Of a DNA stretch of 64,000 nt, positions 39,788 to 47,781 are shown in pieces. This DNA comes from Phycisphaerales bacterium. GTDB taxonomy: Bacteria; Planctomycetota; Phycisphaerae; Phycisphaerales; UBA1924. The translations under genes were made by a program, and so were the position numbers. The stretch spans positions 62,001 through 126,000 of the forward strand of contig JACVCL010000002.1 of the NCBI GenBank assembly GCA_016742075.1, written 5' to 3'. The notes under the pieces are model-generated. The model had not been told where the DNA came from and did not search any database. It saw nothing but the letters and a program-made list of their open reading frames with translations. Every line of letters starts with the position of its first letter. The stretch's first letter is position 1.

Positions 39788-41005
39788 TCAGGCCCGGAGC
39801 GCGTCGGCCACCTTGGCCAGAGCGTCGCCGATCTGGCCGATCTGGGCGTCGGTCAGGGCCTGGTGCACCGGGATGCAGAACAGCTCGCGCGAGAGGCGGT
39901 CGGCCACCGCGCAGTGGCGGACGCCCGGCTTGTCGAACACCGGCTGGCGCGTGAGCGACCGGGGATAGTGAATGGCGGTGCCGACGCCCTCGGCGTTCAG
40001 CGCTTTGCAGAACGAGTCGCGGACGCCGAGCCCGTTCTCGACGGAACGGAAGCGGGGCTCGTCGAGACGGACGGGGTAAAGGTGGTAGACGTGCTCACCG
40101 CCGGGGGTGGGCGTCGGCGGGGTGAGGCCCGGGATCTGGGCGATGAGCCGGTCGAGCTTCGCGGCGTTGGCCCGGCGACGCTGGGTGAGGTCGGCCAGAC
40201 GCTTCATCTGGCTCACGCCGATGGCGGCCTCGAGATCGGTCATCCGGTAGTTGTAGCCGATCATCGTGTGCGTGTACTTCTGCGGCTCGCCGTGCGAGCG
40301 GAGCAGACGGAGCTTGGCGGCCAGTTCGTCGTCGTTGGTGGTAACCATGCCGCCCTCGCCGGTGGTCAGGTTCTTGGTGGCGTAGAACGAGTAGGTGACG
40401 GCGTCGCCGTAGGCGCCGATGCCGCGGCCCTTGTAGGTGGCCAGGTGCGACTGCGCGGCGTCGTAGATCACGCTCAGGCCGTGCTTGGCCGCCAGGCCCT
40501 CGACCCCGTCGATATCGACGGGATTGCCGTAGATGTGCGTCGCCGCGATGGCCGCGGTACGCGGCGTGACCTTCGAGGCGGCGTCGGCCACGTCGATGCC
40601 GTAGGTGATGGGGTCGGCGTCGCAGAAGACCGGGATCCCGCCGCGGGCCACGATCATCGAGGCGGTCGCGAAGTACGACCACGCCGGGACCAGCACCTCG
40701 TCGCCGGGGTCGAACAGCGGCTCGTAGGCGAGCTGGAGGGCGCAGGTGCCGTTGGCGCAGGCCACGGCGTGCTTGCAGCCCGAGGCCTTCACGAAAGCCT
40801 CCTCGAGCGCCAGCACGTTTTTGCCCTGAGCGAGCATGCCCGACTTGAGCACCACGAGAGCGGCGTCGATGTCGGACTCGGTGATCTCGACCTTGACCAC
40901 GCCGATGGCCGGCGAGGCGACGGGCGCGCCGCCCTGCAGAGCCAGCGGGCCCGAGGTGCGGGCGGGGACGGCGACGGTCACCGGGGCGGTTCCGACTTTG
41001 CTCAT
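39788..41005 (-). CDS. DegT/DnrJ/EryC1 PLP-dependent sugar aminotransferase
   Basis: A 405-residue aminotransferase of the family that aminates keto-sugars attached to nucleotides in glycan or antibiotic pathways. The start at 41005 is favoured; an in-frame ATG lies 19 codons upstream but adds poorly conserved sequence. The PLP lysine is Lys211 in YATKNLTTGEGG. Other landmarks are ACANGTCALQLAYE near residue 80, DAAQSHLATYKG, and the C-terminal HVYHLYPVR. It is the first of a run of minus-strand genes that includes xseA and xseB. The product sugar is unknown; the WecA-type and O-antigen-ligase-like genes at 21-25 kb suggest surface glycan use. Confidence 0.93.
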   Translation of the reverse strand: MSKVGTAPVTVAVPARTSGPLALQGGAPVASPAIGVVKVEITESDIDAALVVLKSGMLAQGKNVLALEEAFVKASGCKHAVACANGTCALQLAYEPLFDPGDEVLVPAWSYFATASMIVARGGIPVFCDADPITYGIDVADAASKVTPRTAAIAATHIYGNPVDIDGVEGLAAKHGLSVIYDAAQSHLATYKGRGIGAYGDAVTYSFYATKNLTTGEGGMVTTNDDELAAKLRLLRSHGEPQKYTHTMIGYNYRMTDLEAAIGVSQMKRLADLTQRRRANAAKLDRLIAQIPGLTPPTPTPGGEHVYHLYPVRLDEPRFRSVENGLGVRDSFCKALNAEGVGTAIHYPRSLTRQPVFDKPGVRHCAVADRLSRELFCIPVHQALTDAQIGQIGDALAKVADALRA

Positions 41006-41340
41006 GTGGGCGGTCCTGAGAGAAGGCAACTCGGCACGGAGGCCGAACAGACGGTGGGACAATCCGGCGGAATCTCGCCGATCCTTCGGCGAACGAGCCC
41101 GAACGCCGAACCGGGGTTGCTGCGGGTCCGGCGGGATTGGGAGTCCAGCATAGGCGGCGACGGCGCGGCCCGCCCCCTTCCGCCAAGCGGACGTGGGGCA
41201 CCCACGCCGGCCCTGCCGGCGGTCGGTCGGCGGGTCGTGGGGGTTGCCCAGCTTCCCCGGACGCGTTCATCCGGGCCGGATCTTGGGGTTCTCGGGCAAG
41301 TCCCCGGAAGTCGGGCGGCGGCCGGGTCGATACCAGCGGC
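41006..41340. other. 335-nt gene-free region upstream of the aminotransferase
   Basis: I see no convincing gene. It holds a 7-bp perfect hairpin at 41075-41092 (TCGCCGA with TCGGCGA) and a TATGCT hexamer on the minus strand at 41153-41148 that could be a -10 box for the aminotransferase gene, but no matching -35 box. Long antisense frames here look like G+C-driven shadows. Confidence 0.4.
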
Positions 41341-41607: not shown

Positions 41608-42432
41608 TCAGAGGACCAGCGGCGCAATGCCGATGCAGCGACGCTCGGCGGCGTCGATGCGGATCATCGCCCCGCACGCGGCGGGTTGCTGGGCCGTCGG
41701 CTCGAGCTGGCCCCCCTCGCGGTCGCGGAGGCGCGCGATGCTCGCGGCGGGGTCGAAGCCGATGACTCCTCCCTGCCCACCGGTGCAACCCAGGTCGGTC
41801 ATGTAGCCGACGCGTTGGGCGATCAGCCTCGCGTCATTGGTCTGGACGTGGGTGTGCGACCCCACCACCGCCACCACCGACGGGTGCCGCTCGGCGAGAT
41901 GCCAGGCGATGGCACCCTTCTCGGCGGTGGCCTCGGCGTGCACCTCGACGATCGCCACGGCCCCGGGGTGCTCTTCCTCGAGCCGCGAGAGGTGCTCGTC
42001 GAGCGTGGCGAACGGGTCGGGGGGCGTGAGCGGCATGAAGACGCGGCCGAGCACGGTGAGAACGAACACCTCGGCACTTTCGCCGCGCGGCGGAGCGGGC
42101 AGCCGGATGCGGGCCTTGGCCTCTTCGAATCCGGGGAAGTTGATCGGCCGGCACAGCGGCTCGGAGGCGCGCTTCATGATTGGGATCACCCGCTGGTCGT
42201 CGGCGGCGTGGTCGCCGGTGGTAACGGCGTCGGCGCCGGCCTCCCGCAGCGCGGCGTAGCCCTCGGGGTGAAGGCCCCGCCCGTGACGGGTGTTCTCACC
42301 GTTGACGAGCACCGCCGAGACGCCCATGTGCTGCCGGGCGTGGGCCGCTGCGCGGGCGAAGGCGTCGCGCCCGGGGCGGCCGACGACGTCGCCGAAGAAC
42401 GCGACGCGGTACTCGCCCTGGGTGTGGCTCAC
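41608..42432 (-). CDS. YmdB-like metallophosphoesterase (TIGR00282 family)
   Basis: A 274-residue protein of the YmdB family, cyclic-nucleotide phosphodiesterases with a two-metal centre. Metal-site motifs present are [30 protein letters not shown] and [14 protein letters not shown], and the family ending [16 protein letters not shown] is also seen. The GNH motif of the family is TTGDHAADD here, so a metal-ligand Asn is replaced by Asp. The GTG start overlaps the stop of the ABC ATPase (GTGA), making it the last gene of the sugar-transport operon. In Bacillus YmdB controls biofilm and motility choices; a link to sugar uptake here is inference. Confidence 0.88.
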
Positions 42433-43568
42433 GCCGGGGGCCTGAGGATGTTCGGCCCGAACTCGCCGGGCTCGAACACGTGCACGTGCTCGGGGTCGAG
42501 GAAGAACTCGATGGTCTGCCCGGCCGGGAAGTTGTCGCGGGCGTCGATCCGGGCGATCAGACGCTGGCCCGCGGGGGTCTGGCACGAGACGTCGATCTTG
42601 TCGCCCAGGGGCTCGACGACCGTGGTGGCCAGGCGCAGGGCATTGCCGCCGCCGGGCGGGGCGAACTTGCCCGCGGCGTGCTCGCTCATGGCGTTCGGGC
42701 GGAATCCCAGCACCAGCGGCCGGCCCTCGTGCCGGGCCAGATCGGCCGCGACGCCGGGCTGATCGGCCGGGAGCGCCAGGCGGAGCCAGTCGCCGCCGAC
42801 GAACACCGGGCGCTGGCCCTCGCGGGCGATGGTGCCCTCGACGAAGTTCATGGGCGGCGAGCCGAGGAACGCGGCAACGAAGCGGTTCACCGGGCGGCGG
42901 TAGACGTTCAGCGGCGTGTCGACCTGCTGGATGCGGCCGTTGCTCATGACCACGATGCGGTCGCCGAGCGTCATCGCCTCTTCCTGATCGTGCGTGACGT
43001 AGATCGTGGTGGTGCGCAGCCGCTGGTGCAGGTTCTTCAGCTCGGTGCGGGTGACGACTCGCAGCTTGGCGTCGAGGTTGCTCAGCGGCTCGTCGAAGAG
43101 GAACACCTGGGGCTCGCGGACGATGGCCCGGCCCAGGGCCACGCGCTGACGCTGGCCGCCGGAGAGGGCCTTGGGCTTGCGCTCGAGAAGCTGCTCGATG
43201 CCCAGCAGGCGGGCCGCCTCGCCCACGCGCCTGCGGATCTCCTCCTTGGGCATCTTGCGGAGCATGAGCCCGAAGGCCAGGTTCTTGAAGACGGTCATGT
43301 GCGGGTAGAGGGCGTAATTCTGGAACACCATCGCGATGTCCCGGTCTTTGGGGTGCACGTGGTTGACCACGCGGCCGCCGATGTCGACCGTGCCCTCGGT
43401 GATGTCCTCGAGGCCCGCGATCATCCGCAGGGTCGTCGACTTCCCGCAGCCCGAGGGGCCAACGAAGACCACGAACTCGCCGTCGCGGATGTCGAGGTTG
43501 AAGCCCTCGACCGCGCGCACCTTCCGGTCGTAAACCTTGCCGACGTTCCTGAGCACCACCTGAGCCAT
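42429..43568 (-). CDS. Carbohydrate ABC transporter ATPase (MsmK/UgpC type)
   Basis: A 379-residue ATPase that powers sugar import. The N-terminal 240 residues hold Walker [11 protein letters not shown]-loop [12 protein letters not shown], signature LSGGQRQR, Walker [16 protein letters not shown] and the H-loop YVTHDQEEA. The C-terminal 130 residues are the TOBE/regulatory domain of the MalK group (VEGTIAREG and the final [11 protein letters not shown]). It may serve several transporters, as MsmK does. It follows the MalG-type permease by 24 nt and overlaps the YmdB-type gene. Confidence 0.95.
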
Positions 43569-43592: not shown

Positions 43593-44465
43593 TCAGCCCT
43601 TGACCGCCCCGAGCTGGATCCCCTTCACCAGATAGCGGTTCAGCAGCAGGAAGATCACCACCGGCGGGACCATCGCCATGAGGCTCGCGGCCATGATCAG
43701 CGGCGTCTCACGCCCGTAGCTGCTGTCGAAGACCAGGAGGCCCAGAGGCAGGGTCCGCAGGTTCACGTCTTTCACCAGGATCAGCGGCCAGAAGAACGAG
43801 TTGTAGTTGCCCAGGAAGCAGAAGATCGCCAGCACGATCACGCCCGGGCGGGCGAGCGGCAGGACGACCTCGGTGAAGATCCGCCAGTGGCCGGCGCCGT
43901 CGATGGCCGCGGCCTCATCGAGGCTTGTGGGGATCGTGAGCATGAACTGCCGCAGCATGAAGGTGCCGAAGGCGCTGAAGGCGCCCGGGATGATGAGCCC
44001 CCAGTAGCTGTTGAACATCCCCAGCCCAAGAACGACCGCGAAGTTCGGCACCATGAGCACCACGCCGGGGATCATCAGCGTGCCCAGGTAGAGCAGGAAC
44101 ACCTTCTCGCGCCCCGGCCACTGCACGCGGCTGAAGGCGTACGCGGCCATCGCGCAGGTGATGACCTGCAGGATCGTGACCCAGCCGGCCACGAAGAAGC
44201 TGTTGAAGAAGTACTTGGCGAACGGCACCCGCTCGAACACCAGCCCGTAGTTCGACGGGAGCAGCGTGGGCGGGAACCCGGTCTGCGTGAGCAGGTCGAC
44301 GTCGGTGAGCGTCGCCAGCGACATGAGGATCTGCCACACGAACGGCACCGCCGCGGTCACGCCGAACAGCGTGAGCCCGGCGAAGACGGCGACGCGGGAG
44401 ATCGGCAGCCCTGCGCGGCCTTCGCCGACGATCGTGGTGCGGGGTTGTGCGGGCTGTTCCGGCAT
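43593..44465 (-). CDS. Carbohydrate ABC transporter permease (MalG type)
   Basis: A 290-residue inner-membrane permease with six predicted helices. The EAA loop is present as SLDEAAAIDGAGHWRIFTEV, which docks on the ATPase. The N-terminal helix begins near residue 24 (VAVFAGLTLFGVTAAVPFVW) and the usual periplasmic loop PPTLLPSNYGLVFERVPFAK follows. The length is normal, unlike the partner permease. The start is ATG at 44465, 29 nt after the upstream permease. Confidence 0.95.
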   Translation of the reverse strand: MPEQPAQPRTTIVGEGRAGLPISRVAVFAGLTLFGVTAAVPFVWQILMSLATLTDVDLLTQTGFPPTLLPSNYGLVFERVPFAKYFFNSFFVAGWVTILQVITCAMAAYAFSRVQWPGREKVFLLYLGTLMIPGVVLMVPNFAVVLGLGMFNSYWGLIIPGAFSAFGTFMLRQFMLTIPTSLDEAAAIDGAGHWRIFTEVVLPLARPGVIVLAIFCFLGNYNSFFWPLILVKDVNLRTLPLGLLVFDSSYGRETPLIMAASLMAMVPPVVIFLLLNRYLVKGIQLGAVKG

Positions 44466-44494: not shown

Positions 44495-45889
44495 TCAGTC
44501 GTTGGTCATCTGCGACCCGAGGCGGAAATTCACGATCGTCATGGCGAAGATCATCGCGAACATGACCCAGGCGATGGCGGAGGCGAGGCCGAGCTCGAAG
44601 GTGCCCTTGAAGGCGCGCTCGTAGAGGTAGAACGCCAGCACGCGCGTCTCGGCCGCGCCGCCGGTCATCACCATCGCCTGCTCGAAGCCGCCCTGGAGGC
44701 CGCCGATCGTCGACATGATGACGATGAAGAAGGTGGTCGGCGCCAGCTGCGGCCAGGTCACGTGCTTGAAACGCTGCCAGCCCGAGGCGCCGTCGATGCT
44801 GGCGGCCTCGTACAGCTCGGGCGGCACGTTGGAGAGCCCGGCGAGGTACAGCAGCATGTTCCCGCCGCCGACGCCGCACCAGACGCCCATGACGATGAGC
44901 GCGGGCTTGGCGTAGGTGGGGTCGATGAGCCAGTCCGGCGGCTTCAGGCCGTCGGCCGCCCAGCCGTGGACGCGCCAGAGGACGATCGCCACGCCCCAGC
45001 CGGCCGCGAGCAGCGTCGCCGCCCAGGCCACGCGGCCGAACAGCGCCGCGGCCCCGGCCACGCCCGAGCCGAGGTTCCGCACGCCGTTCACGACCGTCAG
45101 ACCGGCCAGCATCGCCACGAGCCCGAACACGCCGGCCGCCCCGGCCTTCCACACCCACTCGGGCGTCTGCTTGGTGGCGTGGGTGATCCAGTTCAGCAGG
45201 GGCTCGAGGCCGGCGTTGATCAGACCGCCGCGCGGGCGGTAGAGCGTCTTCCAGAGCAGGAACATCGCGACGCCCGCGAGCAGGCTGGGCAGATAGAACA
45301 GCGTGCGGAAGAACGCTGAGCCGAAGGCCATCCCCCCCGCCACCACCGCCCCGAGCACGGCCATGGCCAGCACCGCGGCGTTCGACCGCGCGCGGTCGAC
45401 CTGGAACACGGTGAGATCGGTCAGCCCGATCTCTCCGGACTTCACCGCGGTGAGCTCGGTCGGGGCCGGGCCGGGGGTGGTGAGCATCCAGACGCCGAAG
45501 CACGAGATGGCGGTGACGGCCAGGGCCACGCCGACCCCCCAGGCCTTGGAGCCGCGACCCGCCGGGCTGCTCTTGGCGTTGAGCAGCAGCGCGAGGCCCA
45601 GGCTGCCCGCGATGCCGATCGGGATACCGATCATCAGGTACACGGTGTTGCCGAAGTAGTTCCAGAAGAAGCCCGACTCATCGCCCCAGAGCAGACGGGC
45701 GTAGTTCTCGATGCCCACGAACCGCACCGGCGTGCTCGAGAATGAGTTGTGCTTGGTCAGGGCCCAGTCGGTGAAGCTCATCGCCAGCGAGAAAAGCACC
45801 GGCCCGGCCGTGAACACCAGGAAGCCGAGCAGGTTCGGCAGGAGGAACGCCAAGGCGATGAGCAGACGTTTGCGTGCAGAGCCGATCAA
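44495..45889 (-). CDS. Carbohydrate ABC transporter permease (MalF type) with two inserts
   Basis: A 464-residue permease, about 170 longer than the usual 290-310. The first helix is at residues 9-36 and the core resumes at FFRTLFYLPSLL (193-204). It continues at PPDWLIDPTYAKPALIVMGV (317-337) and PPELYEAASIDGASGW, the EAA loop. Insert 1 (about residues 106-192) and insert 2 (about 228-316) each carry two hydrophobic segments, such as WGVGVALAVTAISCFGVWML and VFGLVAMLAGLTVVNGV. The protein could therefore have about ten helices. The TTG start overlaps the stop of the binding-protein gene (TTGA). E. coli MalF is also enlarged, but by a soluble loop, not by extra helices. Confidence 0.9.
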   Translation of the reverse strand: MIGSARKRLLIALAFLLPNLLGFLVFTAGPVLFSLAMSFTDWALTKHNSFSSTPVRFVGIENYARLLWGDESGFFWNYFGNTVYLMIGIPIGIAGSLGLALLLNAKSSPAGRGSKAWGVGVALAVTAISCFGVWMLTTPGPAPTELTAVKSGEIGLTDLTVFQVDRARSNAAVLAMAVLGAVVAGGMAFGSAFFRTLFYLPSLLAGVAMFLLWKTLYRPRGGLINAGLEPLLNWITHATKQTPEWVWKAGAAGVFGLVAMLAGLTVVNGVRNLGSGVAGAAALFGRVAWAATLLAAGWGVAIVLWRVHGWAADGLKPPDWLIDPTYAKPALIVMGVWCGVGGGNMLLYLAGLSNVPPELYEAASIDGASGWQRFKHVTWPQLAPTTFFIVIMSTIGGLQGGFEQAMVMTGGAAETRVLAFYLYERAFKGTFELGLASAIAWVMFAMIFAMTIVNFRLGSQMTND

Positions 45890-47781
45890 CGCCCACGCCC
45901 CCCCTCACCCGCCCGCCCGCCGTGCACGCTGCTCACCTGAGCGGGCTTGCGGGCCGCTTCGACCTGCTCACGCACGCCCCGCTCGGGGTCGAACGGCCGG
46001 CCCACGAGCTTCTCCCACTGGGCCCGCAGCCGCGAATCCCGAAGAAGGTTGGCCCGGATCTGGGCGTTGACGCCGTCCTCGATCTGCTTCACCGCCTCCT
46101 CGGGCGTCAGGCGGTTGTTGGTGACCCGTTCGATGATGGGGCCGTCGATCTCGCCCACGCGGGCCCGGTCGACGAACGGGGAGAGCTCGGTCGGCACCGC
46201 GAAGTCCATCGCCTCGACGAAGACCGGCGAGTCGAAGCCCTCGAGCCCGGGAAGGGCCCGCGGCGGGCCGGCGATGCCGTTGCGGTTGGTCACGTGCATG
46301 TCGCCGGCGATCGAGTCGAACGTGAAGTTGATCTGGTTGTTGTAGTCCTCGCTGGCGAGGAACTCGAGGAATCGCACGGCGTAATCGCGCCGAGGCGAGG
46401 CCCGATTGGCGATCGCCACGCGGGCGCCGGCCTCGTACGTGGGCTCGGTGCGGAGCGACGGGATGTGGGCCACGCCGAGGTTGAGCAGCAGACGGCGGTC
46501 GTCGGCCGTCAGAGCCCGCTCCATCGCGGCGTACTGCCCGTCGCTGATCGGCCGGAGGACCTCCACAACGAGGCTGCGCAGGGCCGACTCGAGCAGTTCG
46601 CGCTCGGTGCGCGATGATTCGTCGGTCTTTCCGGCGAGCGCGGCGATGGTTCGCTCCATTGCCGGTCGGATCACACGGTCGCGATTGCGCTCGGCGAGGC
46701 CCTTGTAGCTCCAGCGGCCGTCGGTGACCATCGCCGAGACTTTGGCGGCGAAGAGCGCCGAGGCCGAGGCCGAGGCGGCGTCGGCGTTCATGTTCGCCCC
46801 GCCAGCCGCGGCCATGCTCGCCGCCTCGGCCGGGGTGGGCATCACCTTGTGCCGGTACATCAGGTCCTGGTAGGCCCGGAACGCGGCGACCGTGCGGGGA
46901 TCGTTGTAGACGCAAGCGGTGCCGTCGTCGGTGAACAGCCGGGCGCCGTTGGCCATGGCCATAGGCGTCGGGTGCATGCCCATGATGCCGACGCGCCGGC
47001 CGGTCGTGTCCCGGGCGGTCAGTGTTCTGCCGACCTCGATCAGCTGCTCGATGCTCCACGGCCCCTTGGGCTCGGGGATGCCCGCCTCCGCGAAGAGGTC
47101 GCGGTGGAAGAACAGCACCGTGTACCCGATGTTGCACGGGAAGGCGTACTGCCGTCCGTCGATCGACATGCTGTACACGGCCACCGGGAACACCCGGTCG
47201 GGCCCGAACCCCTTCTGCTTCGCGGCGTCGGTCACGTCGAGCGCCACCCCGGCCGAGACGAGCTGCCGGAGCTGGATCGGGCCGTAGCTCTCGATAATGT
47301 CGGGGCCGGCGCCCGCCACGCACTGCACGATCGTCTTGGTGATGTCGCGGTTCGTGGGGTCGGTGACGATGTCGATCGGCTCGCCGTAGGTGCGGAGGTG
47401 CCACTCCCGGAACAACTGGCACTGAACGGCCCGCGCGGGGTTATCGTCGGTCGACCACACCAGCGTGGGTGTCGCGGCCAGCGGACGGTCGGCCCGGGCG
47501 TTGTAGAACGAGCGGAAGGCGGCCACGAGGGGCGCGCGTTCGTCGCGGCTTTTGAGGGCCAGGTCCGCCCAGCGAGCGGGCGGTGAGAGGCCCTCCGCCT
47601 CGGCCTTGGCACGGAAAGCCTCGAACAGGCCGCGGACCCGTTCGTTGGGCGGGCTGTCGGCGACACCGAAGTAGGCGGCGATGACGTCCTCATCCCGGGC
47701 CTGATCGGGAAGGACCACGAGATAGGCGAAGCCCGTCAGGGCCGTCCAGAGAGCAATCAGGCCGAGGATGATCCAGCGCAT
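45886..47781 (-). CDS. Membrane-anchored extracellular solute-binding protein (family 1)
   Basis: A 631-residue binding protein, longer than the usual 400-450. The N-terminus is an uncleaved-looking helix (MRWIILGLIALWTALTGFAY) without a lipobox, so it is probably anchored in the inner membrane. A helical extension of about 110 residues precedes the binding fold, which starts at TPTLVWSTDDN. Family features include GAGPDIIESYGPIQLRQLV and YAFPCNIGYTVLFFHRDLF, the latter typical of sugar-binding proteins. Another region of about 80 residues (near 415-490) is an insert. It is the first gene of the operon, with a good promoter 18 nt upstream, and is coupled to the permease gene by a TTGA overlap. 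Confidence 0.9.
   Translation of the reverse strand: MRWIILGLIALWTALTGFAYLVVLPDQARDEDVIAAYFGVADSPPNERVRGLFEAFRAKAEAEGLSPPARWADLALKSRDERAPLVAAFRSFYNARADRPLAATPTLVWSTDDNPARAVQCQLFREWHLRTYGEPIDIVTDPTNRDITKTIVQCVAGAGPDIIESYGPIQLRQLVSAGVALDVTDAAKQKGFGPDRVFPVAVYSMSIDGRQYAFPCNIGYTVLFFHRDLFAEAGIPEPKGPWSIEQLIEVGRTLTARDTTGRRVGIMGMHPTPMAMANGARLFTDDGTACVYNDPRTVAAFRAYQDLMYRHKVMPTPAEAASMAAAGGANMNADAASASASALFAAKVSAMVTDGRWSYKGLAERNRDRVIRPAMERTIAALAGKTDESSRTERELLESALRSLVVEVLRPISDGQYAAMERALTADDRRLLLNLGVAHIPSLRTEPTYEAGARVAIANRASPRRDYAVRFLEFLASEDYNNQINFTFDSIAGDMHVTNRNGIAGPPRALPGLEGFDSPVFVEAMDFAVPTELSPFVDRARVGEIDGPIIERVTNNRLTPEEAVKQIEDGVNAQIRANLLRDSRLRAQWEKLVGRPFDPERGVREQVEAARKPAQVSSVHGGRAGEGGRGR

Follow-up and report, generated by a model that had tools for sequence, protein, structure and literature searches.

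A MalF-type sugar permease from a Phycisphaerales bacterium with two inserted pairs of predicted transmembrane helices

The permeases of type I importers are usually regarded as an invariant set of core helices, to which no more than additional N-terminal helices or hydrophilic loops are joined. In Escherichia coli MalF, the additions include two N-terminal helices. This subunit has been described as unusual for its eight helices and its 180-residue periplasmic (P2) domain (PMC2246101), and the MalG1 and MalG2 proteins of Thermotogales carry a hydrophilic region of about 500 amino acids between TM1 and TM2 (PMC2246101). Here, we describe a MalF-type permease encoded in a 64,000-nucleotide stretch of DNA from a Phycisphaerales bacterium (the window), whose best structural match is SugA, the six-helix CUT1 permease of the mycobacterial trehalose importer LpqY-SugABC. 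SugA is like the window permease in core fold and length, but at ∼284 to 307 amino acids it has no insert at either of the two sites described below. E. coli MalF shares the core fold and is likewise a MalF-type subunit with extra parts; however, its hydrophilic domain lies between its TM3 and TM4 (core TM1 and TM2), whereas the window permease has hydrophobic hairpins in the core TM2-TM3 and TM3-TM4 loops. The Thermotogales proteins are also CUT1 subunits with a large lineage-specific insert, but theirs is hydrophilic, sits in MalG, and occupies a different loop. The precedents for additions to CUT1 permeases are thus hydrophilic and placed in other loops, and the literature that we searched, which covered few subscription journals, contained no description of hydrophobic inserts or hairpins between the core helices of MalF-type permeases. 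For QacA-like 14-helix MFS antiporters, an allosteric role has been reported for an added loop (PMC10425836); this family is unrelated, and its likeness to the window permease is one of analogy only.

A CUT1 permease interrupted at two loops

The permease gene occupies positions 44495 to 45889 on the minus strand and encodes 464 amino acids from a TTG start codon, as read from its open reading frame. The TTG overlaps the stop codon of the upstream binding protein gene (TTGA, window positions 45886 to 45889), suggesting translational coupling of the two genes, and orthologues start with M, V, or L codons at the matching residue. The gene order in the window is SBP-MalF-MalG-MalK, all on the minus strand. 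The solute-binding protein (SBP_bac_1; 45886 to 47781, 631 amino acids) has a hydrophobic anchor at its N terminus, with no lipobox cysteine, and belongs to family 1, being related to sugar and oligosaccharide binders. About 80 extra residues precede its family 1 domain, a feature common to the clade of the window permease. The MalK/UgpC-type ATPase (42429 to 43568, 379 amino acids) scores above the UgpC subfamily cutoff. The MalG-type partner permease (43593 to 44465, ∼290 amino acids) lacks an insert, so that its normal length, as claimed by an earlier sequence-only reading, holds for the window but not throughout the family: the MalG proteins of three relatives (L067, L071, and L072) carry hydrophilic inserts of 110 to 200 amino acids in the TM1-TM2 loop, reminiscent of Thermotogales MalG, whose insert is closer to these than to those of the window permease. 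Two conserved neighbors on the same strand encode a YmdB-like metallophosphoesterase (41608 to 42465, start approximate) and a DegT/DnrJ/EryC1 aminotransferase (39788 to 41062). Such genes lie near the operon in 5 of 11 compared loci, some of which are incomplete, and they do not indicate the substrate.

The gene product is an ABC permease of the MalF/SugA type (CUT1) in which all six core helices and the EAA loop are present, as supported by Pfam, a sequence search of solved structures (which matched SugA and MalF), an AlphaFold2 (AF2) model, and structural alignment. Alignment with relatives places core TM1 and TM2 at residues 1 to 105 (45575 to 45889), core TM3 (FFRTLFYLPSLL...) at residues 191 to 216 (45242 to 45319), with an insert on either side, and core TM4 to TM6 at residues 318 to 464 (44498 to 44938). 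The last region includes the EAA coupling motif EAASIDGASGWQRFKHVTWPQLAP (44738 to 44809), which is intact in the window copy and kept across the aligned orthologues. The Pfam model BPD_transp_1 matched with 44.8 bits against a gathering score of 26.4, and the match is confined to residues 306 to 455, since the core is interrupted in its N-terminal half. The protein falls below the cutoffs of the E. coli-type MalF equivalog NF008232 (74.2 bits versus 392) and of the UgpA equivalog NF007852 (55.2 bits versus 335). A large hydrophilic P2 domain is absent, the spacing between core TM1 and TM2 being only ∼37 residues. From the EAA loop, the MalG partner, the ATPase, and the binding protein, we predict that the importer transports a sugar.

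Hydropathy yields 10 segments, namely, core TM1 to TM6 and two in each of two insert blocks. Insert 1 (residues 106 to 190; 45320 to 45574) lies in the cytoplasmic TM2-TM3 loop, with predicted helices at about residues 117 to 137 (45479 to 45541) and 170 to 190 (45320 to 45382). Insert 2 (residues ∼228 to 316; 44942 to 45208) lies in the periplasmic TM3-TM4 loop, with predicted helices at about residues 247 to 273 (45071 to 45151) and 287 to 307 (44969 to 45031). The sequence-only reading had proposed this interruption of the core by two blocks with two hydrophobic segments each, and its boundaries were right to within a few residues. By one and the same measure, the inserts span 84 (site 1) and 97 (site 2) residues in the window permease, compared to 3 to 4 and ∼15 to 40 residues in ordinary relatives. 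GC3 stays at 0.95 to 1.0 through both blocks, which are therefore coding. When the residues of each block were shuffled, two TM-like segments arose in 66 of 2,000 trials for block 1 and in 182 of 2,000 for block 2. Given that these rates make single-sequence hydropathy alone weak evidence, we examined relatives; support for inserted TM pairs comes from the pattern in 30-odd relatives together with the charge pattern of the loops.

Loops predicted to be cytoplasmic contain 26.2, 19.9, and 13.8 K+R per 100 residues, those predicted to be periplasmic 7.7, 3.9, 7.4, and 7.1; these figures are descriptive, being based on hydropathy windows chosen during the analysis and on related sequences. The turn between helix i1b and TM3 (mean of 5 residues, nearly without K+R) is uninformative. 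The loop charges thus agree with the positive-inside rule for a hairpin topology. The added hydrophobic segments are even in number throughout, except for block 1 of L042, where the count is odd and one segment falls just below the threshold. Taken together with the hydrophobicity of the orthologous segments and the AF2 model, these observations give good support to the earlier estimate of about 10 rather than six helices, and the hairpins would be expected to insert into the membrane.

Spread, variation, and origin of the hairpins

Orthologues were found in 11 of 400 Phycisphaerales genomes (E value of ≤1e-80), with six orthologous loci in genome contigs, and searches at the class and phylum levels added more distant members. 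Intact frames with both hairpins are present in at least 10 other genomes, and about 33 sequences of Phycisphaerae relatives have hydrophobic pairs at the same two sites. The inserts are conserved in kind in related planctomycetes and are not decayed sequence, as shown by open frames, identical sites, and a conserved SBP-MalF-MalG operon. No relative was found when viral contigs were scanned with the clade alignment, and viral structures gave no match at an E value of ≤0.001. One copy looks broken: L012 (G053:C22:11926-12555) comprises just 189 amino acids from the C terminus of MalF, and a TGA and a TAG codon fall within the match. At eight other loci (L014, L015, L016, L017, L019, L020, L022, and L024), single frames of ∼800 to 940 amino acids have a region that by eye resembles a binding protein, followed by a MalF-type permease, and are apparent SBP-permease fusions.

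Insert sizes, measured with three separate core models, vary considerably. Block 1 consists of one hairpin, spanning 80 to 94 residues in the window's clade and 54 to 61 in most members. In block 2, the window copy and three f15 members have a single pair of segments, to which every other member of the window's clade adds a hydrophilic part of ∼85 to 175 residues. Most f6, f11, and f15 members have four segments here, and L011 has six. The window copy, as the sole member of its clade without the hydrophilic part, is nested in the tree, so that loss is the simplest reading; the missing part may also be an assembly deletion.

In a core-only tree of 70 rows, from which L107 was left out, all included insert-bearing members fall within one 36-row clade (UFBoot of 100, SH-aLRT of 95). 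Inside this clade, hydrophobic inserts are missing from L056 and L106, only insert 1 is present in L060, and L103 lacks insert 1 and has four hydrophobic segments elsewhere in the TM3-TM4 loop. Since L056, L103, and L106 do without it, insert 1 is dispensable. L107/L164 (G334), a relative from a different class, has a hairpin at site 1 and, in the stretch that joins core TM1 to TM2, four additional hydrophobic segments, amounting to ∼12 helices. These absences and other-loop additions (L056, L060, L103, L106, and L107) suggest that insertions came and went, and in more than one loop.

Profile comparisons give a partial picture of how the hairpins are related. The insert 2 hairpin of the window's clade matches that of the f15 group with 93.8% probability over 75 columns. 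When the f15 hairpin is compared with the four-segment form, its second half pairs well with the second hairpin (91.2%) and its first half weakly with the first hairpin (20.5%). For insert 1, the profiles of the long and short subclades gave no demonstrable homology (2.9%), and control comparisons of insert against core profiles stayed at or below 5%. A common origin of inserts 1 and 2, or their derivation from core helices, was likewise not supported, the profile comparisons giving ≤5%. At L045 (G145), insert 2 contains two hairpins that are 72% identical over 61 amino acids, the mark of a recent tandem duplication.

Structural model and constraint on the insert helices

A first AF2 model, based on seven orthologues, was poor (mean pLDDT of 49.9). 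The second used 20 sequences (seven from the clade, seven canonical MalF-type proteins or fragments from viral contigs, and six MalG rows) and reached a mean pLDDT of 74.7 and a pTM of 0.53. VIA-align superimposed residues 5 to 460 of this model on SugA (8ja7_A; Z score of 19.9, rmsd of 4.0, 257 of 284 residues) and the model on MalF (9bcr_H; Z score of 17.6), and Foldseek returned the same family. The model thus points to a six-helix core with the MalF/SugA fold, with low confidence at TM3 (pLDDT of <50, at residues 193 to 210). About 200 model residues remained unaligned to SugA, a number that fits the size of the inserts, although the aligner does not list which residues these are. Insert helices are modeled at residues 112 to 137, 161 to 198, 244 to 275, and 280 to 311; the second of these continues into TM3, so that the helix ends there are unsure. 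With six MalG rows among its 20 input sequences and its weakness precisely at TM3, the model gives a tentative picture of how the hairpins pack against the core.

Among orthologues of the window permease, the insert helices show pairwise identities of 32 to 45%, versus 72 to 79% for core TM1, TM2, TM3, TM4, and TM6. They nevertheless have a mean Kyte-Doolittle hydropathy of 1.3 to 2.0, 3 to 10% polar residues, and almost no charged residues. One-sided conservation that would mark a packing face is unsupported, the only nominal values of <0.05, before correction, being those for two helices of the short clade, i1b and i2b. This combination of low constraint and weak helical-face conservation points to lipid-facing helices, probably add-ons outside the sugar path.

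A candidate role for the hairpins

On balance, we favor the view that the protein is the MalF subunit of a working CUT1 importer with two TM hairpins at its lipid edge that brace core TM3. The retained six-helix core would pair with MalG, bind MalK via the EAA loop, and form the sugar path, while the two hairpins added in this Phycisphaerae lineage would bring the number of helices to ten. One would enter at the cytoplasmic end of core TM3 and the other at its periplasmic end, both lying where the edge of the subunit faces the lipid, away from the sugar path. In this position, they would most likely brace TM3 and its ends, contributing to packing and stability rather than to a new catalytic role. 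Bracing seems the likeliest role, with neutrality close behind. The sequence-only reading had spoken of a new accessory domain; this holds only in part, since the inserts are two separate, lineage-specific hairpins of variable size and low constraint, which give no support to a single domain or function.

The weak one-sided conservation does not favor specific packing, and it is quite conceivable, if less probable, that the hairpins are real but functionally neutral. In that case, the loops of this permease would tolerate lipid-soluble hairpins, which GC-rich genomes would generate by duplication or insertion and whose sequence and number would drift. Low identity with retained hydrophobicity, the weak helical-face conservation, the two, four, or six segments, the duplication at L045, the fact that single lineages have lost insert 1 or the hydrophilic part, and the extra segments found elsewhere in the loops of L103 and L107 all fit such drift. 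However, the site 2 hairpin is kept in nearly all members of a diverged clade of several families, and if parts this large were neutral, more frequent loss would be expected. We regard as unlikely a docking site for a partner, such as a membrane-anchored binding protein or another envelope protein. In the clade's binding proteins, ∼20 hydrophobic residues at the N terminus, with no lipobox cysteine, probably form an uncleaved anchor, and insert 2 faces the periplasm, with an extra hydrophilic part in orthologues. The binding proteins of insert-less relatives are similarly anchored, though, so that the anchor does not explain the inserts, and co-occurrence of the inserts with an anchored binding protein, or with an enlarged one as raised by the sequence-only reading, turned out not to be specific. 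Moreover, the insert helices are little conserved, and no extra operon neighbor is conserved except for the YmdB-like and DegT-type genes, in a minority of loci.

Soluble or surface helices that do not span the membrane seem very improbable: the shuffling test on the single sequence was only modest and AF2 confidence moderate, but the charge pattern, the near absence of charged residues in the segments across orthologues, and the even segment counts speak against them. Decay or misassembly is hardly credible. The window copy alone in its clade is without the 85- to 175-amino-acid hydrophilic part, and it comes from a draft genome of 250 contigs; yet its frame and codon bias are intact, and the intact frames of the other genomes carry both hairpins. 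We thus retain TM3 bracing at the lipid edge as the preferred reading for the window permease.

For the family as a whole, a more speculative and rather doubtful proposal is that hairpins in this planctomycete CUT1 branch behave as modules: while the six-helix core stayed fixed, they were gained, duplicated (two, four, or six helices), and lost in several of its loops, giving sugar importer subunits of 10 to 14 helices with an added function, e.g., in partner docking or regulation. Hydrophobic hairpins have been threaded repeatedly between core helices in this lineage, whose members range from no added helices to eight and include one case of fresh tandem duplication. This natural series lets one ask by what route large membrane proteins acquire helices and whether hairpins of this sort are of use or simply tolerated.
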